A DNA stretch of 49,397 bases from a virus. The position numbers were made by a program, and so were the translations under genes. The stretch spans positions 1-49,397 of the IMG/VR virus record IMGVR_UViG_3300047462_000101; one strand, 5' to 3'. Shown here one piece after another: positions 6,351-16,323 of this stretch (the stretch's first letter is position 1; every line of letters begins with the position of its first letter). The notes below the pieces were generated by a model. That model did not search any database. It was not told the DNA's origin and was given only the letters and a program-made list of their open reading frames with translations.

Positions 6351-6386
6351 ATAAACAGAAAGGACCGAAAGGTCTTTTTTGTTTAT
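6351..6386 (+). terminator. Long GAAA-capped hairpin, likely bidirectional terminator
   Basis: Bases 6351-6366 pair with 6371-6386 over 16 bp (two G-U) around a GAAA loop. The 3' arm holds a T6 run for the + strand and the 5' arm is A-rich, giving T-rich RNA on the other strand. It separates phoH (+) from the converging small gene (-), whose stop codon lies inside the 3' arm. Confidence 0.8.
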
Positions 6387-6634
6387 AGGGACTTATGAAA
6401 CAACCCAACGACAGCTGATAGAATTGCTACAACGGTTGTAAAGATACCTACAAACCACGATTGCTTGTTTTCTAACTTACCAATACGGTCATCTTGAGAA
6501 CTTAGCTTTTCAATAACAGTATCCATCTTCTTACCATTATCAAGTAGTTGTTGTTCAAGACGGACCAAGCGATCGCTATCTTCACGGGTGAAGGTAATAA
6601 GTGAACGTCTGTCAGGTCCCTGATAATTCGCCAT
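6383..6634 (-). CDS. Small coiled-coil membrane protein, holin/XhlA-like topology
   Basis: An 83-residue protein with a start preceded by AAAGGA. Residues 20-58 look like an amphipathic helix or coiled coil (DSDRLVRLEQQLL, IGKLENKQ). A hydrophobic segment, WFVGIFTTVVAILSAVVGLF, sits at the C-terminus before a short basic tail. This topology resembles XhlA-type hemolysin or holin-associated proteins, but no specific match is claimed. It is the only - strand gene in this part, isolated between the terminator and a + strand promoter. It might take part in lysis or membrane remodelling. Confidence 0.7.
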   Translation of the reverse strand: MANYQGPDRRSLITFTREDSDRLVRLEQQLLDNGKKMDTVIEKLSSQDDRIGKLENKQSWFVGIFTTVVAILSAVVGLFHKSL

Positions 6635-6654
6635 GATAAATCCTTTGTAGATAG

Positions 6655-6683
6655 TTGTGGAATGCGTGGTGTTGTTCTATAAT
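6655..6683 (+). promoter_or_regulatory. Sigma70-type promoter
   Basis: TTGTGG, 17-base spacer, TATAAT (6678-6683). The predicted start is about 30 bases before the ATG at 6717, and this promoter would drive the run of small genes through thyA and the DHFR gene. It partly overlaps the leader of the divergent small membrane protein gene. Confidence 0.55.
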
Positions 6684-6716
6684 ATTTGATAACCTATTTA
6701 CGAGGATTTAACCAAA

Positions 6717-7163
6717 ATGCGTGCATATTTTTTTGGTAATTTATACCTGTCTTCCATCCAACAGGGTATCCAAGCTGCCCACACAGTTGTTGAGATGTAC
6801 AACAAATATCCAGTTGATTCGCACCAGTATTCGATTTTGGATCATTGGGCACGTGATCACAAAACTATGATCCTATTAAATGCTGGCTATAGTGAAAATA
6901 TTCACGAGCTTGTAAGCGTGTTCAATACAACCGCAAATCCTCTCCCTTGGGCTCACTTCAATGAAGGAAAGGACGCGTTGGATGGTGCGTTGACTTGCGT
7001 TGGAATCATTCTTCCTGAAGAGTTCTACGAAGCAGCAAAGGAAATTCGTAATGGTGTTCCACCTACTGATCAATGGGCGGTGGCGCCAAACTATTTCAAA
7101 CTACAAACCGATTGGGAACGAGCAATGGCTCAACGTTTAAATATCTACGGAATGGCACGCTGA
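6717..7163 (+). CDS. Conserved-looking phage protein of unknown function
   Basis: A 148-residue protein preceded by GAGGA. It starts MRAYFFGNLYLSSIQQGIQA, is mixed helical and has no clear catalytic motif that I can name. It is acidic to neutral and probably cytoplasmic. It opens the operon of small genes leading to thymidylate synthase. Its stop overlaps the next start (TGATG), so the two are translationally coupled. I do not recognise the family with certainty. Confidence 0.75.
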   Translation: MRAYFFGNLYLSSIQQGIQAAHTVVEMYNKYPVDSHQYSILDHWARDHKTMILLNAGYSENIHELVSVFNTTANPLPWAHFNEGKDALDGALTCVGIILPEEFYEAAKEIRNGVPPTDQWAVAPNYFKLQTDWERAMAQRLNIYGMAR

Positions 7164-7300
7164 TGTTTGGTCCATGGAAATTTCTTGATACCCAACAAAA
7201 GATTGTAGCTGGTTTTGTTTATTTTGTTTTTGCAATCTATGTATTTGCAATTTTGTTTATCGCATTTTCTTTTGGAATGATAGTTGCTCAAATGCACTAA
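7163..7300 (+). CDS. Small single-span membrane protein
   Basis: A 45-residue peptide starting at the ATG that overlaps the previous stop. A longer in-frame reading from 7073 would lie entirely inside the upstream gene, so the short form is preferred. The first 13 residues are soluble; residues about 14-42 are strongly hydrophobic (IVAGFVYFVFAIYVFAILF). Function is unknown; it may be an inner membrane peptide acting on host physiology. Confidence 0.65.
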   Translation: MFGPWKFLDTQQKIVAGFVYFVFAIYVFAILFIAFSFGMIVAQMH

Positions 7301-7311
7301 TAAGGATAAAA

Positions 7312-7509
7312 ATGTCGGACGATAAGACTTACGTCTATAAAGAGACAGAAGTAAAACTAACAGGGCGCACAGCCGAAAAAGAAATTAAGGGACTTCGAAA
7401 GGGCACACCATCTCGAGTTGCTGTCCTTCATGAAATTACTCCTGTTGATTCATTAAATGGTTCTTGGAAAAAGTGGGTTCAAATGGTTGAACTCTTTGAG
7501 ATCATGTAA
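7312..7509 (+). CDS. Small hypothetical protein
   Basis: A 65-residue charged soluble protein preceded by AAGGA. No motif is recognised. The stop TAA at 7507-7509 shares its last A with the ATG of the next tiny frame, which supports both as real coupled genes. Confidence 0.6.
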   Translation: MSDDKTYVYKETEVKLTGRTAEKEIKGLRKGTPSRVAVLHEITPVDSLNGSWKKWVQMVELFEIM

Positions 7510-8832: not shown

Positions 8833-9206
8833 TGGACAAGCCAACAGCCGAGTACAAACTCGAAAAGAAATCTGTAAACAACAAAGCAATATTCAATGAG
8901 GTCAATACGTTCATTGACGAAGGTATCCTAACAGGTGGAGTACTTTGGGGCAATGACATTCACCGCGAAAGTTTTGTTGAGATCGTAGGGGATTTCCTAG
9001 ATCAACTTATGGACGATAGTCGTATCGATCAGTGGAATGTTATTTGCGATCTTCGCAACAATTCAATCGCTTCAATGGACAAAGGCGTCTATGTAATGGA
9101 AGTACAGTACCGCCAGAAGAATTGTTTGAACACAACACGTTTGATATACACAATTTCTGATCTTCTAGTTAAGAACATTAAGGATCTAATCGATTTTGCT
9201 GTATGA
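8832..9206 (+). CDS. Hypothetical protein between thyA and the DHFR gene
   Basis: A 124-residue soluble protein that starts on the last base of the thyA stop and ends overlapping the DHFR start. The C-terminal half has a beta pattern (NVICDLRNNS, YVMEVQYRQKNCLNTTRLIY). I do not recognise the family. Its tight coupling suggests co-expression with dTMP synthesis genes rather than a proven shared function. Confidence 0.7.
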   Translation: MDKPTAEYKLEKKSVNNKAIFNEVNTFIDEGILTGGVLWGNDIHRESFVEIVGDFLDQLMDDSRIDQWNVICDLRNNSIASMDKGVYVMEVQYRQKNCLNTTRLIYTISDLLVKNIKDLIDFAV

Positions 9207-9736
9207 AGAAGATACTTCCAGAAATAGTTGTTGCTGTTGATTGCGAAGGTGGATTTGGCAAGGATGGTCAAATCCCATGGCACTTACCAGAGGATATGAA
9301 ACGATTCAAGGAATTGACGACAGGTCATGTCTGTGCAATGGGTCGTCATACATTCAACGATATGTTGGATATGAGAGTGAAGAGAGATGCAGAGAAAGGA
9401 ATCAATCTTCCTATCAATGAGATTCTTCCTGGACGTGATTGTTATGTGATTACTAAAAATCAAGATTACAAAACACCAGGTGCAACTCGTGTTAACAGTT
9501 TAGGTAATGTTCGAGATAAGATTAAAGAGGATTCCAAAAGACTATTTGTGATTGGTGGTCGAAGGATGTTTATTGAAGCACTATCATGGTGCGAGACAAT
9601 TCACATGACGGTAGTAAAGGGTGATAGGTATAATTGTGATACCTTCTTTCCTATACAGGTACTAAATAAAAAATTCGAAATTAAGTCAGGCGAAGAAACT
9701 GACAAAGCCTATTATGCTGTTTATAAACGCAAGTAA
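9203..9736 (+). CDS. Dihydrofolate reductase
   Basis: A 177-residue protein with the DHFR layout: VVAVDCEGGFGKDGQIPWHL at residues 9-28 (Met20-loop equivalent, ending in W-H-L-P-E-D with the catalytic acid), MGRHTFNDM (NADPH site) and VIGGRRMFIEAL (second cofactor loop). It reduces dihydrofolate with NADPH and so partners ThyA. An insert near residues 55-75 (KRDAEKGINLPINEI) separates the MGR helix from the next strand. In T4 the equivalent is frd, next to td, the same neighbourhood as here. Confidence 0.93.
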   Translation: MKKILPEIVVAVDCEGGFGKDGQIPWHLPEDMKRFKELTTGHVCAMGRHTFNDMLDMRVKRDAEKGINLPINEILPGRDCYVITKNQDYKTPGATRVNSLGNVRDKIKEDSKRLFVIGGRRMFIEALSWCETIHMTVVKGDRYNCDTFFPIQVLNKKFEIKSGEETDKAYYAVYKRK

Positions 9737-9748
9737 GGGGTATAAGAA

Positions 9749-9943
9749 ATGGCGAAGTTGTGCACTGCAGGAGTACGTGGTCCGTACTCGTATGTAATTT
9801 TAAATAACGTTAGCGACGTTGTTGTGGCAGTTAAGGAAGATGATAGAGAGATCATCACAACACATCTCGATATGGATGTAGCAGAAAGGTGGGTCGATAA
9901 ACATTTAGACTCACTAGTTGAAAGGAATTATGAAGTTGATTGA
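9749..9943 (+). CDS. Small hypothetical protein
   Basis: A 64-residue acidic protein with a start preceded by AAGGGG. No motif is recognised. Its 3' end overlaps the start of the Acb1-like gene by 14 bases, which supports coupled translation. Confidence 0.6.
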   Translation: MAKLCTAGVRGPYSYVILNNVSDVVVAVKEDDREIITTHLDMDVAERWVDKHLDSLVERNYEVD

Positions 9944-10424
9944 AATTGCTTCGCCACGAGGAACATACTTCGGGTTGAAGCCAACAAAAGAAACTGTAGC
10001 AGCAATGCGAGAGTTCATGGGAGATCATAGAATCCCAAATCCATTAGAGGATCACAAGCTACATGCAACGGTTGTCTATAGCCGAGCATTTGTTGGAGCT
10101 CGCCCTCTTGGTGAACTTGATCCAACCTGGAAAGGAAAGTTTACAGATTACGATATCTTTCAAACGAGTCCAAAGGTAGAAGAGAGTACTGGTGAATCAA
10201 GACGTTGTTTAGTAATGAAGTTTGATTGTCCTGAAATTCACGAACGTCATCATTACCTTCGTAAGCATCATGGTGCAACTCACGACTTTCCAAACTTTGA
10301 TCCGCACATGACAATGTCGTATGATGTTGGTGAATTTGATCATCAGAATTTACCAGAGTATGATGGTCCTCATGAATTTCATGAAGAATATTCTGAACCT
10401 CTTGACTTGAACTGGGTAAAATAA
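9930..10424 (+). CDS. 2H phosphoesterase, Acb1 (T4 57B)-like, candidate anti-CBASS nuclease
   Basis: A 164-residue protein with two H-x-T motifs, H45-A-T47 (KLHATVVYS) and H126-M-T128 (DPHMTMSYD), the signature of 2H phosphoesterases. The stretch GATHDFPNFDPHMTMSY and overall length resemble T4 gp57B, known as Acb1, which cleaves the cyclic oligonucleotide signals of CBASS immunity. ATG 9930 has AAAGGAA upstream and is preferred over the TTG at 9918. Assignment to Acb1 rather than another 2H group is from recalled motif spacing. Activity on cyclic nucleotides is inference. Confidence 0.72.
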   Translation: MKLIEIASPRGTYFGLKPTKETVAAMREFMGDHRIPNPLEDHKLHATVVYSRAFVGARPLGELDPTWKGKFTDYDIFQTSPKVEESTGESRRCLVMKFDCPEIHERHHYLRKHHGATHDFPNFDPHMTMSYDVGEFDHQNLPEYDGPHEFHEEYSEPLDLNWVK

Positions 10425-10463
10425 AGGTCTTGACATTACGGTCTCAGTATTTTTAACGAAGAG

Positions 10464-10494
10464 TTGACCAAGTTTACTGGGTAGTGTATAAATA
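10464..10494 (+). promoter_or_regulatory. Promoter of the tmRNA gene (sigma70-type plus perfect late box)
   Basis: TTGACC (10464-10469), 17-base spacer, then TATAAATA (10487-10494). The same bases serve as a good -10 element and as a perfect T4 late promoter box, so the tmRNA could be made both by host sigma and by a late phage sigma. Transcription would begin near 10500. Confidence 0.7.
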
Positions 10495-10563
10495 CGCCCA
10501 TGGTTGTATATCTGTTGAACTGACAGAATGATGGACCCGGTTTCGATACCGGCATCTCCACCA

Positions 10564-10607
10564 AATACAGTTACCAGCATGATCGTTTCATAACTGGTAA
10601 CTACTGA
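10564..10607 (+). ncRNA. Intervening segment of the permuted tmRNA precursor
   Basis: This lies between the encoded CCA and the 5' G of the coding piece. It contains a perfect 9-bp hairpin, AGTTACCAG (10569-10577) with CTGGTAACT (10594-10602). In known two-piece tmRNAs the corresponding segment is removed by processing. The hairpin sits where RNase P and 3'-processing enzymes would cut. Confidence 0.75.
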
Positions 10608-10690
10608 GGGGATGATAGGATTTCGACACATTAGATAGGAACAACGGCAACACGTCAGGTGATCGACGTTAATGAAACAAAACTATAAAC

Positions 10691-10738
10691 GCAGCAAACG
10701 ATGCTATGTTTGATCAGGATTTTGCACTAGCTGCTTAA
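10691..10738 (+). other. tmRNA tag reading frame (A)ANDAMFDQDFALAA
   Basis: GCA GCA AAC GAT ... GCA CTA GCT GCT TAA. The start AND and the end ALAA match the conserved ends of bacterial SsrA tags; the terminal ALAA is the kind of signal recognised by ClpXP. Whether the resume codon is the GCA at 10691 or 10694 cannot be fixed from sequence. Confidence 0.85.
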
Positions 10739-10780
10739 TCTCTGAACGGAGTAGAGACCACTTGTCAACAGAACGGTCAG

Positions 10781-10819
10781 AAAAGGCGAACCCCTTAAAA
10801 AGGTTCGCCTTTTTCTTTT
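10781..10819 (+). terminator. Rho-independent terminator of the tmRNA gene
   Basis: AAAAGGCGAACC (10781-10792) pairs with GGTTCGCCTTTT (10802-10813), followed by TTCTTTT. A 12-bp perfect stem. It separates the tmRNA from the ClpP-like gene, which must be read through or have its own promoter. Confidence 0.92.
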
Positions 10820-10879
10820 GGTCTTTAAAAATCATTCCACTAAATAGTTCGTTGAAAAATAAACAATTAAAGGATCGAA

Positions 10880-11467
10880 ATGGTTAATGATAAGCCAAAA
10901 AAGCTCGATGATGATACCGATAGACCTTACGCCCATTACGAACAAACAATTACCCGCAGAGTACTTCACTATTATTTAAGTTGTGCAATCGAGCAGCCAT
11001 CTGAATATATTGAAATGATTCATCGCATACAGACTGCAACTGCTGATGAGATTGTCTACGTTCACTTGAACACTCCAGGTGGACAATTGGATACTGGTGC
11101 TCAAATTATTAATGCAATGCAGTCTACACAAGCTCACGTAATTGTTAGCATTGAAGCAAATTGCCATTCACTTGGCACATTAATCTTCTTAGCTGCAGAT
11201 GAGTTTATTGTTCACGACAACTGCTTAATGATGATCCATAACTACAGTGGTGGTATATGGGGTAAGGGTAATGAACAACAATCCCAACTCGAAGGTCAAA
11301 TGAAATGGTTCAACACATTGGCAAAGAGGTTGTACATTCCTTTTCTATCTGCTGATGAGTTTGACCGTGTAGTTCGTGGCGAGGACTTATGGTTGCAGTC
11401 TGACGATATCCGCAAACGACTTGAGAAAATGGTTAAGATTAAAAAGAAGAACGTTGAAAAGAAGTAA
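10880..11467 (+). CDS. clpP: ClpP-like serine protease
   Basis: A 195-residue protein, the usual ClpP length. The catalytic triad can be placed: S97 in NCHSLGTLIF, H120 in MMIHNYSGG, and D169 in GEDLWLQS, close to E. coli mature numbering (97, 122, 171). NTPGGQLDTG (residues 64-73) is the usual oxyanion and substrate-strand region. The Ser context is C-H-S-L-G instead of the common A-A-S-M-G or A-M-S-M-G. The C-terminus is Lys-rich. The start is preceded by AAAGGA. ClpP forms a barrel fed by ClpX or ClpA; no Clp ATPase gene is in the window, so it would have to use the host unfoldase or act in another way, for instance as a prohead protease. Its place right after the tmRNA suggests a link to degradation of tagged proteins. 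Confidence 0.85.
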   Translation: MVNDKPKKLDDDTDRPYAHYEQTITRRVLHYYLSCAIEQPSEYIEMIHRIQTATADEIVYVHLNTPGGQLDTGAQIINAMQSTQAHVIVSIEANCHSLGTLIFLAADEFIVHDNCLMMIHNYSGGIWGKGNEQQSQLEGQMKWFNTLAKRLYIPFLSADEFDRVVRGEDLWLQSDDIRKRLEKMVKIKKKNVEKK

Positions 11468-11482
11468 GGGTTTACTTATGGT

Positions 11483-12556
11483 ATGGACATGGACGTCCTC
11501 CCACTCGAACAAATAATTCGCCAATACATTCCTCTTCCGCACGTAGCTTCAGGAACAGGTTGGTATCAAGTCCTTTGCAAAGTATGCAACGACTCAGGCA
11601 GAAAGGGTCCTCGAGCTGGATTTAAATTTGATAGTAATCAAGTTGTCGGCTACCATTGTTTCAATTGTGGACACAAAGCAAAATACGATCCTGCTACGAA
11701 TCGAAGCCTATCAAAGGCGATGACAGAAATCCTAACAAGCTTCAATGTTCCAAAGGATGAAGTTGATAAGCTAAAACTTGAAGCTTTCAAACCACGAGAT
11801 TTGATTATTAATACACCAACTCAATCTATCATTCAGCAGATTGAGCCAATGGTAGTTCCACTCCCTTCTCACTTCTATCCGTTATCAGAAGCAAGTCCAA
11901 ATGACGTTTGGGGTCAGATTGCCTTGGACTATTTGGAATATGATAGAGGCATTGACCCTAAATCTCATCCATTCTATTTGGCTCATAAAACTGGTGATCC
12001 GAAGCTAGATCGTTGGTTTGGCAGGGTTATTATTCCAATCTATAAAGATGACAACCTGATCTTCTATATAGGGCGTGATTTAACAGGGAAAAAACAAAAG
12101 AAGTATCTATCTCCTTCATATTCAAAGGAAAAAATAATTTATGGTTTTCACGAGTTATATCGTGAAACAGAAGAACCACTATACATAGTAGAAGGGTGGT
12201 TCGATGCATTCGTGATAAATGGAGTTGCAATTTTAGGCAACGAGATCTCTGAAGCACAAACTACTTGGCTTAACAAATCATACAGAAAGAAAGTTTATAT
12301 TCCAGATAGGTTTGGTGATGGATGGGTTGCTGCTGAACATGCGTTAAAAAAAGGTTGGTCAGTATCAACTCCTGAAATAGGAAATTGTAAGGATATAAAT
12401 GAAGCCGTACTAAAATATGGCAAACTTTATGTAATGAAGTCCATTGCAGAAAACATTGCAGAGGGCTTCACAGCTCAAGCAAGGCTTGGAGTTTATTGCA
12501 AGTATGACTCAACTAACAAGGATCGCAGCAAGAAGAAAAATCAAGGCTCACCTTAA
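11483..12556 (+). CDS. DNA primase (T4 gp61-like, zinc finger plus TOPRIM)
   Basis: A 357-residue protein. A zinc-binding site C32-x2-C35...C59-x2-C62 lies at the N-terminus (LCKVCNDSG, HCFNCGHK), as in primases. A TOPRIM-like core follows: PLYIVEGWFDAFVINGVAILG near residues 232-252, with the conserved Glu in VEGWFD. It makes RNA primers on the lagging strand and would work with the DnaB-like helicase encoded further on. The ATG at 11483 is preceded by AAGGG at slightly long spacing; ATG 11489 is an alternative. Its 3' end overlaps the SprT-like gene. Confidence 0.85.
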   Translation: MDMDVLPLEQIIRQYIPLPHVASGTGWYQVLCKVCNDSGRKGPRAGFKFDSNQVVGYHCFNCGHKAKYDPATNRSLSKAMTEILTSFNVPKDEVDKLKLEAFKPRDLIINTPTQSIIQQIEPMVVPLPSHFYPLSEASPNDVWGQIALDYLEYDRGIDPKSHPFYLAHKTGDPKLDRWFGRVIIPIYKDDNLIFYIGRDLTGKKQKKYLSPSYSKEKIIYGFHELYRETEEPLYIVEGWFDAFVINGVAILGNEISEAQTTWLNKSYRKKVYIPDRFGDGWVAAEHALKKGWSVSTPEIGNCKDINEAVLKYGKLYVMKSIAENIAEGFTAQARLGVYCKYDSTNKDRSKKKNQGSP

Positions 12557-13109: not shown

Positions 13110-14984
13110 ATGGCAAAGAAATCAGATTATACTGCTGAGGATATTAAAGTCCTTAGTGAAAGGGACCATGTTAGATTACGAACACAGGTCTACTTCGGCA
13201 ACATGTCGAAGACAACATATCCAGTTCCAATTTTTCTAAACGATAAACTTGAAATTAAAAACTTCGAATTTGTTCCTGCTGTCTATAAAGCAGTAGGAGA
13301 GATTATTGATAACTCAATAGACGAATTTGTTAAGATAAATATTCCTAACAAGCTTCTATCAATAGAAGCAAATACAGTGCTTGGGACATACACGATCTCA
13401 GATAATGGTCGAGGTGTACCAATCGATATGCACTCTATTGGCAAATATACTCCAGAGGTTGCATTCGGATCTTTACGATCAGGAAGAAATTTCTCTGATG
13501 GTAAAGAGGCAGGAGTTAAAGGTCAGAATGGTGTTGGATCTGCTTGCACAAACTATTGTTCAGTTGAATTCTCTTTAGATATCCATCGTGATGGCAAGCG
13601 CTACCGTCAGACATTTTCAGACGGTGCCAATCAAATTTCGAAGCCAAGCATTCGTGCTGGTTCCGATCAGACTGGAACAAGTGTTTCTTTTCAACTTGAC
13701 AGTCGAGTATTTGTAGATCCAACTCTACCTGATGACCTCTTGCATAATCAGGCAATTGAAATTGCACTAACCAATCCTGGACTTGCTGTTGAGTACAATG
13801 GCAACAAATATAAGTTCAAGAAAGGATTTGAGGACATTGTTAAGAAGTTATCAAATAGCTACTTTAAATTTGAACAAGATGGTATTGAGTTCTATGTTAT
13901 CTTCGACATCAGTACAAGTTTGGATGAGACAATCTTCTCGTGGGTCAATAGTTCTTTGCTATTTGATGGTGGACTTTGTAATACGCAATTTTTAAATTCA
14001 TTCTACGATCACGTAATTGAGCATCTTGCAAGTCAAGCTAAAAAGGCTAAATGTGAGATAACAAAGAACGATGTTCGAGATCATTTGTTTGTATTGGGGA
14101 ATTTAAAAATTTCAGACCCTCAATACGATGCACAGAGTAAGACAAGATTAACTGGTCCTAACCTTCGTAATGAAATAAGTACGATGCTTGATAACCAGTG
14201 GAAGGAATTCTCTAAGAAGAATAAGGATTGGTTGCAAGTTGTATTTGAACGTGCGATGATTCGTCATCACGTTCAAGCAGATAAGGAAGCAATTAAGGAT
14301 CACAAAAAGAACCTTAAGAAGAAGGTCGATGGTCTTATTGATGCTACGAGCACAAATAGATTCGAAACTTGCCTATTGATAACCGAAGGTGATTCTGCTG
14401 CAAGGAAAATTACTGAAGCAAGAAATCCAAAAACAATTGCTTCCTTACCATTAAGTGGTAAAGTGAACAATGTTTACGGAACAACTGTTGCACAATTACT
14501 TAACATGGGAAAGATGACAGATATGTTATCTGCTATTGGATTAATACCTGGACATAAAGCACTTCGAAGTGAATTGAATTATGGAAAGGTAATTATATCT
14601 GTTGATGCAGACGAAGATGGTAAAGATATTTTTACATTACTTATTAATCTATTCTATTCATTTTGGCCTGAATTATTCAGCAAAGATTATGAACCATTTA
14701 TCTATAAAATGGTTGCGCCGAATGTCGTTGCTTCCAAAAATGGTAAGCGCATACATTTCACAACTCGTTCTGACTTTGAAAAGCAGAAAGAGAAATACAA
14801 GGGTTATACTATCGAGTATATGAAAGGACTTGGTAGTATGGATGAAGAAGATTGGAAGCTTGTTATAGCTGGTTTAGATCAGTACAGCATTCCAATCATA
14901 GATGATGGAAAAATTACGGAGACCCTCCAGTTGCTGTTTAGCAATGACACGGAGGCAAGAAAGGAATGGCTACAAAAAACATAA
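13110..14984 (+). CDS. Type II DNA topoisomerase, large (ATPase/TOPRIM) subunit, gp39/60-like
   Basis: A 624-residue GyrB/ParE-type protein. The GHKL ATPase motifs are EIIDNSIDEF (near residue 64), DNGRGVPIDM, and KGQNGVGSACTN (ATP lid). The TOPRIM motifs are LITEGDSAARKI (near residue 424) and SVDADEDGKD. In T4 these parts are split between gp39 and gp60; here a single chain covers both, as in many T4 relatives. It pairs with the medium subunit gene 1.6 kb downstream to form the phage topoisomerase that relieves supercoiling in replication. Confidence 0.94.
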   Translation: MAKKSDYTAEDIKVLSERDHVRLRTQVYFGNMSKTTYPVPIFLNDKLEIKNFEFVPAVYKAVGEIIDNSIDEFVKINIPNKLLSIEANTVLGTYTISDNGRGVPIDMHSIGKYTPEVAFGSLRSGRNFSDGKEAGVKGQNGVGSACTNYCSVEFSLDIHRDGKRYRQTFSDGANQISKPSIRAGSDQTGTSVSFQLDSRVFVDPTLPDDLLHNQAIEIALTNPGLAVEYNGNKYKFKKGFEDIVKKLSNSYFKFEQDGIEFYVIFDISTSLDETIFSWVNSSLLFDGGLCNTQFLNSFYDHVIEHLASQAKKAKCEITKNDVRDHLFVLGNLKISDPQYDAQSKTRLTGPNLRNEISTMLDNQWKEFSKKNKDWLQVVFERAMIRHHVQADKEAIKDHKKNLKKKVDGLIDATSTNRFETCLLITEGDSAARKITEARNPKTIASLPLSGKVNNVYGTTVAQLLNMGKMTDMLSAIGLIPGHKALRSELNYGKVIISVDADEDGKDIFTLLINLFYSFWPELFSKDYEPFIYKMVAPNVVASKNGKRIHFTTRSDFEKQKEKYKGYTIEYMKGLGSMDEEDWKLVIAGLDQYSIPIIDDGKITETLQLLFSNDTEARKEWLQKT

Positions 14985-15727
14985 AACCATTTAGTAAAGA
15001 ACTAAATGTTGAACTACGAACAATGTATCTCAAATCACTACAACATCCAGTGTCGTATGATAATGGATTAACTATACGTCCACGAGTGAGGCATTATAAG
15101 CTATGGGAAGCAATTCCTAAGGCTGGAAATATTCGAGACATTATTGCAGAAGGCAAGAAGATTTGGGTGTGGAGTGATTTACACTTTGGTCACAACAATA
15201 TCATTAAGTTTAGCAATCGTCCATATCCAGATATTGATACGATGAACGAAATGTTCATCAAGACGTTTAACGATATGGTAGGTCCAGATGATATCTCAAT
15301 TTGGGTAGGTGATATTTCATTTAAAGGTGCAGAAGAATCTAAACGAATCGTTCGACGAATGAACGGATACAAAATCCTCGTTGTTGGTAATCACGACTTT
15401 GAAAAGAAGAAAGGAATTAAGCCACTTGCGATGGATGAAGTACACATCGTCTATAATCTTGAGATGAGTGAATCGAAAATCGCATTTACTCACTATCCAA
15501 TGGATAACCTTCCTGAAGGATGGGTTGGAGTTCACGGCCACGTTCATATTGGAGGACACCATGCAGACGAAGTTAAAAGCACCACTCACATTAATGTCAA
15601 TTGTGAATTTTGGGATTACAAACCAATTCCATTAGAAGTTATCTATGATAAAGTTGTTGAGTTTGAACAACTCAACAAAGCAGGTAAAGGTAAACGTGCG
15701 GAGATTGATTATACAGAATACGATTAA
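14966..15727 (+). CDS. Calcineurin-like metallophosphoesterase
   Basis: A 253-residue protein whose ATG overlaps the topoisomerase gene by 19 bases, with GGAGG and AAAGGA upstream. The metal ligands appear in order: D71-L-H73 in WSDLHFGHNN, GDISF, GNHDFE, H in FTHYP, and GHVHIGG. This is the compact phosphoesterase pattern seen in YfcE-like and phage enzymes. The N-terminal 60 residues lie outside the catalytic core. Substrate is unknown; a nucleotide or nucleic acid phosphate is likely. The stop overlaps that of the antisense homing endonuclease. Confidence 0.9.
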   Translation: MATKNIKPFSKELNVELRTMYLKSLQHPVSYDNGLTIRPRVRHYKLWEAIPKAGNIRDIIAEGKKIWVWSDLHFGHNNIIKFSNRPYPDIDTMNEMFIKTFNDMVGPDDISIWVGDISFKGAEESKRIVRRMNGYKILVVGNHDFEKKKGIKPLAMDEVHIVYNLEMSESKIAFTHYPMDNLPEGWVGVHGHVHIGGHHADEVKSTTHINVNCEFWDYKPIPLEVIYDKVVEFEQLNKAGKGKRAEIDYTEYD

Positions 15728-16323
15728 GCGTAAGCCCACTTATATCCGTACGATGTTATATTTCGTAAAATAGCTGTACGTATATTTGATCCTACACTTG
15801 ATTGTGTCAATCTGGTACAACCTGGTTTAAGTGTTCGTGCAGCTTCGTAAAACCCAGCATGTGTAGTTATAAATTTACCATCTCGTGTATATTGATGTAC
15901 TGGTTTAGACGTTGGGTTTAATTTACCCACAAGACCATAGTTGTGGTTATTTTTACCACTCATTTGTTTAATGGATTTAGCAGTATGACGCATACCATAG
16001 GATCCATCACCTCCATCGGTAAGGTTCATACCAATGCCATTAGGATATCTACATTTGTTTAACTTCCGTTTTTTGATTAAGTAGCGTTCTTTCTTCTTTG
16101 CAGATACTGGTGTTTTACATTCGTGTAGCAGTTCGATTGTAAAATTTTTTTCACCGTATTTGTGAATACAATTGTGCAAGTATGAAGTACTACCCGGACG
16201 ATTAACATGCCGCCAAAACCGTTGCGATAAATATTGCATCGTTGTGATACCAACATAAATCTTATTGGTGGGAATACATGTAATTTTGTACACTTTACAG
16301 GTTGTATTGTTTTTGTTTTTCAT
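15724..16323 (-). mobile_element. GIY-YIG homing endonuclease (free-standing)
   Basis: A 199-residue protein on the opposite strand between the two topoisomerase subunit genes. The N-terminal GIY-YIG domain shows KVYKI and KIYVGIT, then an Arg in QRFWRH and KYGEKNFTIELL. The middle holds SIKQMSGKNNHNYG, like NUMOD3 DNA-binding repeats. The C-terminus (VHQYTRDGKFITTH ... YGYKWAYA) resembles the NUMOD1/IENR helix-turn-helix type. Such genes spread by cutting alleles that lack them. A CATAAATA box on the - strand lies only 4 bases before the ATG, too close for a normal leader; a GTG at residue 11 is an alternative start. The stop overlaps the metallophosphoesterase stop. Confidence 0.9.

Follow-up and report, generated by a model that had tools for sequence, protein, structure and literature searches.

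A permuted tmRNA gene and a clpP-like gene side by side in uncultured T4-like and jumbo phages: dedicated unit or separable neighbours?

Introduction

The IMG/VR virus record IMGVR_UViG_3300047462_000101, analysed here over positions 1 to 49,397 (the whole stretch of 49,397 nucleotides, hereafter the window), carries a permuted gene for transfer-messenger RNA (tmRNA), and the next gene encodes a ClpP-like peptidase. The question raised by this locus is whether the two genes form a dedicated tag-and-degrade unit, as proposed in an earlier note made from the sequence. The evidence presented below pointed, with a probability of roughly 60%, to separable genes kept close by an inherited gene order; any functional benefit of the proximity would be loose, and the two would not form a dedicated unit.

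Phage tmRNA and phage ClpP have each been published already. Two-piece tmRNAs of phages were described together with the proposal that host proteins are tagged for amino-acid recycling, and the census in the accessible passages of the same paper counted tmRNA in 402 phages of 18,146 genomes, with 133 unique structures, 53 of which were suggested to be two-piece (PMC9004378). ClpP of jumbo phages was noted in excerpts of PMC7824862, where peptidases of patchy occurrence were suggested to be deployed against the host. Our literature searches, mostly outside subscription journals and partly on excerpts, found no report of a tmRNA-clpP pair or of a swap of the tRNA-like domain (TLD) in a phage tmRNA.

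A complete tmRNA gene and a ClpP-fold protein

ARAGORN detected a single tmRNA in the window, of the permuted type and with the tag AANDAMFDQDFALAA. The Rfam model tmRNA_permuted (RF04321) matched it over 10502-10738, scoring 109 bits where the cut-off is 47 (E = 1.8e-20). With beta_tmRNA (RF01850), the model of betaproteobacterial tmRNA, the score was 87.2 bits and the cut-off 84. The gene and its parts are as follows.

10472-10829, plus strand: permuted tmRNA gene (ssrA), from ARAGORN and RF04321
10495-10563, plus strand: acceptor (3') piece, 5' end putative; T-arm CCGGT/ACCGG with a 6-nt loop, acceptor strand CATCTCC, A, CCA
10564-10607, plus strand: intervening segment between both pieces, from sequence and fold
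10608-10780, plus strand: coding (5') piece, 3' end putative; acceptor strand GGGGATG with G3-U70, D-arm-like part, resume region
10691-10738, plus strand: tag reading frame AANDAMFDQDFALAA with its stop codon, from ARAGORN and the sequence

The CCA is encoded at 10561-10563, upstream of the 5' acceptor strand that starts at 10608. The acceptor strands of the two pieces can form 7 bp by sequence, including G3-U70, and two-strand cofolding formed the acceptor helix both for the window, in which the CATCTCC side pairs with GGGGATG, and for its close relative L003. The T-stem appeared in the best cofold of L003 but not in that of the window, though the window sequence allows all five pairs. Within 10537-10552, the window tmRNA has a T-loop of 6 nt; counted by eye in nine members of the clade, this loop had 6 nt (window, L194, L198 and L201), 7 nt (L002 and L196) or 8 nt (L003, L195 and L199). 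When 37 tmRNAs of the family (31 distinct) were each read to the stop of the model, the tag ended in AA in 29 of the distinct ones and in LAA in 21; the tags of G211 and G176 had no AA end, and their frames end ambiguously. An end of the LAA type fits the ssrA-type degron recognised by ClpX. The RNA of the window is a complete permuted tmRNA with an ssrA-type tag, in line with the earlier note. Searches among named phages found no nucleotide relative for the 24-kb stretch 5001-29000 or for the 358-bp tmRNA. Assignment of a host from the tmRNA models was tried and abandoned, the window tmRNA scoring with the betaproteobacterial model and that of L002 with the alphaproteobacterial one.

The tag also bears on the idea that the phage tmRNA is a decoy, titrating SmpB or blocking host trans-translation. 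This idea has a precedent in the tmRNA of mycobacteriophage DS6A, which consists of little beyond the TLD and is described as inhibitory or inhibitor-like in excerpts of PMC11915505 and PMC4131195. A decoy, however, would not need a tag, and because the family keeps the tag frame with its AA end almost throughout, we consider a decoy very improbable.

The second gene was characterised by its families and by a structural model.

10880-11467, plus strand: clpP-like gene, 195 amino acids, triad S97/H120/D169, from Pfam, PHROGs and the model

The protein matched Pfam CLP_protease (E = 4.6e-12), and its best PHROG was phrog_1827, labelled 'ATP-dependent protease' in the category 'other' (E = 6.2e-56). 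The AlphaFold2 model, built on an alignment of 40 sequences, reached a mean pLDDT of 92 and a pTM of 0.83. The best 50 matches listed by Foldseek against the PDB were all ClpPs; superposition on the ClpP of the ClpX-ClpP-GFP-ssrA complex gave Z 18.4 and 2.2 A over 153 residues, and the named best matches among viral structures were phage Clp proteases. The triad was invariant in 36 of 36 distinct ClpPs of the family (42 before collapsing). The window protein is a ClpP-fold protein with an intact triad, in agreement with the earlier reading. In the contig G207, the phrog_1827 match at 13931-14443 contained one in-frame TAA, yet an open reading frame (ORF) with the triad was read there.

The earlier note had itself considered that the protein might be only a prohead (head maturation) protease; its place beside the tmRNA would then be accidental. 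Head maturation protease PHROGs did match (phrog_1684, E = 4.2e-23, and others), but more weakly than phrog_1827. A primase or topoisomerase of the replication module lay close to clpP in 42 of 42 loci, where no search for head genes was made among the unlabelled ORFs nearby, and the T4-like phage Marzo has a separate capsid protease of the T4 type. We regard this explanation as extremely improbable.

Signals before and between the genes

The earlier note had described the tmRNA as directly followed by ClpP. The clpP-like gene is indeed the next gene, but a terminator stands between the two. The signals found around the tmRNA were the following.

10465-10494, plus strand: sigma70-like putative promoter of the tmRNA, TTGACC, 16 nt, TATAAATA (at 10487)
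10781-10818 (approximate), plus strand: intrinsic terminator between tmRNA and clpP, from sequence and fold
10841-10846, plus strand: TAAATA element, 39 nt before clpP, a weak candidate for a separate late-type promoter

The sequence 10771-10822 folded into a strong terminator-like hairpin with -19.3 kcal/mol. The hairpin was taken from the sequence and the fold and is absent from the list of the terminator scanner, whose loop limit is 8. From the tmRNA end given by ARAGORN to the ATG of clpP there are 50 bases, and the terminator lies ahead of clpP. Upstream of the tmRNA, the pattern TTGAC-N15-20-TATA was present in six of nine clade members and in 0.9% of background windows, and by a slightly looser -35/-10 rule a promoter-like sequence preceded 12 of the 31 distinct tmRNAs of the family. 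Within the clade, the element TATAAATA was enriched shortly before the tmRNA (7/9), and ATAAATA occurred there in 20 of the 31. As a T4-type late promoter used across the window, TATAAATA was rejected, with five occurrences against 3.05 expected and no overall enrichment. The sigma70-type reading was preferred over the T4-type late promoter, because TTGAC at -35 is frequent in the nearest relatives. The TAAATA element was found no more than 70 nt ahead of clpP in 6 of 12 cases compared with 3.6% of the background, with no enrichment over the window as a whole.

Conservation of the pair and of its surroundings

A ClpP scan of viral contigs gave 272 confirmed loci, the best 80 of which were used, and RF04321 was found on 11 of these 80 records. 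In the ten closest loci (at least 41% identity), the tmRNA lay 78-310 bp ahead of clpP, measured from tag stop to clpP start, in seven; the other three end at the contig edge. The remaining 70 loci had a permuted tmRNA on only four records, none adjoining and the nearest at 2.7 kb. Primase and topoisomerase were also used as anchors to avoid selecting on clpP, and 43 new records were searched whole. The tmRNA was present on 28 of them (27 above the cut-off, and G193 below it with 44.5 bits) and phrog_1827 ClpP on 32; both were found on 26, the tmRNA only on two, ClpP only on six and neither on nine. Of the 26 records carrying both, 24 have the tmRNA on the strand of clpP and no more than 1.2 kb ahead of it. 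Seven of the nine records with neither gene reach the contig end near the site; G203 shows about 1 kb ahead of the primase with no ClpP, and G192 is related more distantly.

In the pooled sets, ClpP was present in 42 loci, with the tmRNA beside it in 33 (28 distinct ClpPs) and not in four (G188, G190, G207 and G211), and five loci end too near the site to judge. G191 and G208 carry the tmRNA in the slot without ClpP. The pair is present in 33 of the 39 resolved records of this family of uncultured T4-like and jumbo phages; their contigs measure 15 to 350 kb, and as most are fragments, a missing gene may lie elsewhere. G194 and G195 were excluded from this count, having distant ClpPs, a primase of 33% identity and no family neighbours. 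The six exceptions consist of a tmRNA without ClpP (G191 and G208), ClpP without tmRNA on the record (G188 and G207) and both genes unlinked (G190 and G211), and in all six, one gene is absent or has moved without the other. On a primase tree of 43 rows, 35 of them different and with 6 of the 32 inner branches open, the exceptions were scattered, and in a shuffle test the pair did not cluster clearly (a value as low in 104 of 500 shuffles). G190 and G211 group together in the tree and may reflect one event.

The earlier note had named co-occurrence in related phages as a check, with random occurrence of single genes as the contrary case. Single genes do occur, but the pairing proved far from random in the family, and chance co-occurrence was ruled out there, but an obligate association did not hold. 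Chance co-occurrence is likely the state of tmRNA phages in general: among 88 viral records found by the permuted-tmRNA pattern, many of them short fragments, phrog_1827 ClpP was present on six. ARAGORN called a permuted tmRNA on 79 of the 88 and a standard one on two.

The slot of the pair belongs to a gene order that is itself conserved, TS-DHFR-Acb1-(tmRNA)-ClpP-primase-SprT-TopL-PPase-TopM. The distance from clpP to the primase was at most 70 nt in 34 of the 42 loci and larger in six, and that primase was absent in two; the clpP-primase linkage is at least as tight as that of tmRNA and clpP. The syntenic neighbours in the window are listed here.

9203-9736, plus strand: dihydrofolate reductase (DHFR), also beside clpP in KVP40, from Pfam and synteny
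9918-10424, plus strand: Acb1-like 2H phosphoesterase (Pfam anti-CBASS Acb1), from Pfam and synteny
11483-12556, plus strand: DNA primase, from PHROGs and synteny

The Acb1-family gene immediately precedes the tmRNA in the window and is present in many members of the family. L201 (record G009) and the related G199 showed no primase of the family downstream of clpP; in L201, an AAA_28 ORF and a primase of the Prim-Pol type (PF09250) occupy its place at 10777-12237. In G191, a 190-kb record (locus L427), a 317-residue ORF with a HELTH motif (6365-7318) follows the tmRNA where other members have clpP; it is a possible metallopeptidase, for which Pfam gave no match and PHROGs at best E = 0.077. 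A homing endonuclease ORF lies on the minus strand of the window at 15724-16323, between phosphoesterase and topoisomerase genes, with a GIY-YIG PHROG among its matches.

The docking surface of the phage ClpP

The pocket that receives the IGF loop of ClpX was compared at positions which we take, in E. coli ClpP numbering, to be those that form it. The mapping was gap-free from N64 to S97 and back from H120, in an alignment with about 18% identity to bacterial ClpP. Among the 36 distinct phage ClpPs, position M92 was occupied by E in 32, D in three and S in one, and position L114 by H in 22, N in ten, Y in three and T in one, compared with I, M or L at 92 and L at 114 in five solved bacterial ClpPs. 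Y62 was replaced by H in 25, kept as Y in nine and C in two, and I90 corresponded to V or I in 20, S in 13 and H in three. As aligned here, the ClpX-docking surface of the phage ClpP is partly altered, being acidic at 92 and polar or aromatic at 114, not hydrophobic as in the canonical ClpP partnered with ClpX. Since this surface is partly rewired, the phage ClpP probably uses a different activator and would not be dedicated to the phage tag.

Some relatives offer a candidate for such a partner. A peptide of 38-64 amino acids with one hydrophobic stretch and the motif GWNxPQP is encoded on nine contigs, ending 3-79 nt before clpP.

L194 7804-7926, L201 9946-10062, L401 1637-1768, L413 7373-7489, and five more contigs: genes of the GWNxPQP microprotein

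The tmRNA is visible upstream in eight of the nine contigs, and among the loci compared the motif was confined to the site before clpP. Four of the microproteins, searched against PHROGs, matched phrog_20849, a family with no assigned function, weakly (E = 8.5e-5 for one and 0.016-0.046 for three), and none of the four matched Pfam. The microprotein is a candidate ClpP partner, and a rewired ClpP might act with this membrane microprotein, phrog_20849-like, or with a host AAA+ protein other than ClpX, in a function unrelated to tagging. The two altered pocket positions and the placement of the motif are in favour of such an arrangement. The microprotein, however, is found at nine of 42 ClpP loci, the window being without it, and its best family match is weak; we judge this explanation rather improbable.

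A possible exchange of the tRNA-like half of the tmRNA

The comparison of the window with L003, which align in five blocks over the first 20 kb at 92.5-98.8% identity, revealed a segment that departs from its surroundings. The two hardly differ in Acb1, tag, terminator and clpP, and strong divergence extends from the Acb1 stop to about 10645, over the promoter, the acceptor piece, the spacer, the 5' acceptor strand and the D-arm.

10425-10645, plus strand: swapped segment with promoter and tRNA-like domain; divergence against L003 at about 6383-6673, flanks almost identical

The T-stems differ and are nevertheless fully complementary, being CCGGT/ACCGG in the window and GGGGC/GCCCC in L003. 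The same break just before the tag was found between G209 and G212, which are 99.1% identical over 700 bp downstream; there the replaced part extends further upstream. The pairs G178/G179, G177/G196, G204/G206 and G186/G006 were identical or one base apart, and G199/G009 diverged throughout. Scans for further close relatives of the window/L003 and G209/G212 pairs yielded none that were new.

As a control, 59 pairs in 16 clusters of other phages with downstream flanks of at least 96% identity were compared, using loci with full flanks (101 of 119); the TLD was kept in 59 of 59, fully identical in 18, with 96.8% as the lowest identity among the rest. Part of this set was chosen by the T-arm pattern, which favours a conserved TLD. 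Two apparent swaps outside the family, L037/L047 and L033/L064 (TLD below 90%, flank at least 98%), were set aside as likely truncation artefacts, with the tmRNA at or near a contig end.

The swap of the TLD, seen in two pairs, is a lead. It would fit a tmRNA gene of two modules under opposing pressures, in which the tag half, the terminator and clpP stay constant and the tRNA-like half is exchanged as a cassette among near-identical phages, perhaps through matching to host SmpB and alanyl-tRNA synthetase or through RNA-targeting defence. Beside a ClpP that conserves an acidic residue on its docking surface and in some cases has a membrane microprotein of its own, such a gene might belong to a rescue-and-proteolysis island rewired by the phage, not a simple copy of host ClpXP. 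This picture is offered tentatively, and we hold it to be doubtful.

Comparison with known phages

Free-standing ClpPs of the same kind occur in KVP40, ICP1, CM1 and XacN1, which are T4-like or jumbo phages, and the window ClpP shares 33-39% identity with those of KVP40, ICP1 and CM1. In KVP40, clpP directly follows DHFR, and CM1 and XacN1 have the order ligase-clpP-primase. A search with the permuted model only found no permuted tmRNA on the records of KVP40, ICP1 and CM1. XacN1 has both genes, 49 kb apart. Stenotrophomonas phage Marzo, T4-like, has a permuted tmRNA like the window, but no phrog_1827 ClpP was found on its record; its tmRNA is described in excerpts of PMC8928761 as highly similar to that of S. 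maltophilia. Phosso has a permuted tmRNA and only distant ClpPs, which are unlinked to it. The bacterial ClpPs of E. coli, S. aureus and N. meningitidis share the fold and the Ser-His-Asp triad with the phage protein, whereas identity is about 18% and positions 92 and 114 are hydrophobic in the former and acidic or polar in the latter.

The Methylophilales phage Melnitz is, like the virus of the window, a T4-like myophage with a permuted tmRNA, but its tmRNA has a glutamine riboswitch and lies upstream of a transcription coactivator gene, and the passages of PMC9004378 covered here describe no adjacent clpP; the word ClpP has no occurrence in the main text of that paper. Mycobacteriophages Bxz1 and Wildcat and Bacillus phage G carry tmRNA, with no linkage to clpP described in excerpts of PMC4131195 and PMC7474061, the latter reporting the tmRNA of Wildcat as the most highly expressed lytic gene of that phage. 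The Sinorhizobium jumbo phage AP-J-162 combines tmRNA with a Clp component, clpX; according to excerpts of PMC11242549, this gene is beside those of IF-3 and topoisomerase, and no clpP is described beside the tmRNA.

Discussion

In a dedicated unit, the phage tmRNA would tag stalled products and the phage ClpP, mounted on host ClpX, would degrade them. Adjacency in 33 of 39 resolved records, tags mostly ending in LAA-type degrons, a triad intact throughout, ClpX-ClpP complexes among the top structural matches and hydrophobic residues at pocket positions 60 and 112 in most members speak for this arrangement. The earlier proposal of such a unit stands in so far as tmRNA and ClpP are each intact and the pair is kept in relatives of this contig; the unit itself was not well supported. 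We did not call the two genes a unit because a terminator separates them and a promoter-like sequence stands ahead of the tmRNA in some members; because the surrounding order is conserved and clpP is bound at least as tightly to the primase; because the exceptions are scattered on the primase tree, with one gene lost or moved alone, so that obligate co-occurrence fails; because the named relatives XacN1, Marzo, CM1 and Phosso show every combination; and because only 6 of the 88 tmRNA records found by pattern, many of them short fragments, have phrog_1827 ClpP. Docking position 92 is E or D in 35 of 36 ClpPs, and 114 is H, N, Y or T in all 36. A dedicated unit is unlikely in our estimation.

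Several observations weigh against separable genes held together by inherited order. The terminator may be compatible with read-through, and a clear -35/-10 pair was found in only 12 of the 31 distinct tmRNAs. Y60 is kept as Y or F in 28 of 36 ClpPs and F112 corresponds to I, V, F, L or Y in 34 of 36, contrary to a simple loss of the pocket; docking, a point the earlier note had wished to see modelled, was followed here by alignment, and two positions came out as mostly hydrophobic but 92 and 114 as altered. The pocket mapping itself depends on an alignment of 18% identity and on the positions taken to form the pocket in E. coli ClpP. Finally, adjacency persists across deep divergence in the family, and selection for proximity may be at work.

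In the preferred reading, that of two separable genes, the phage two-piece tmRNA occupies a fixed slot in the module for replication and nucleotide metabolism that this uncultured family of T4-like and jumbo myoviruses carries. The tmRNA would be charged by the host alanyl-tRNA synthetase, delivered by host SmpB and used to rescue ribosomes stalled during infection, for example after decay of host mRNA, adding an LAA-type degron for recognition chiefly by host ClpXP. A search of 22 records gave no match to SmpB (PF01668), and AAA_2 (the ClpX/ClpA/ClpB type) matched on one, G158, outside the family; neither was found on the 12 family records among them, all of which are fragments. This suggests that the phage uses host SmpB and host unfoldases. 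The neighbouring ClpP would be an older phage gene, as the orders frd-clpP in KVP40 and clpP-primase in CM1 and XacN1 imply, and is predicted to be an active serine peptidase with a partly rewired docking surface.

The locus bears on the question of why lytic phages carry tmRNA. A family with a fixed tmRNA slot beside a peptidase gene is a tractable set for distinguishing the degradation of tagged products by phage machinery from that by host machinery, and the altered docking positions give a clear yes/no prediction on whether the phage ClpP uses host ClpX. The exchange of the tRNA-like cassette, in turn, suggests which part of the tmRNA meets host-specific pressure.

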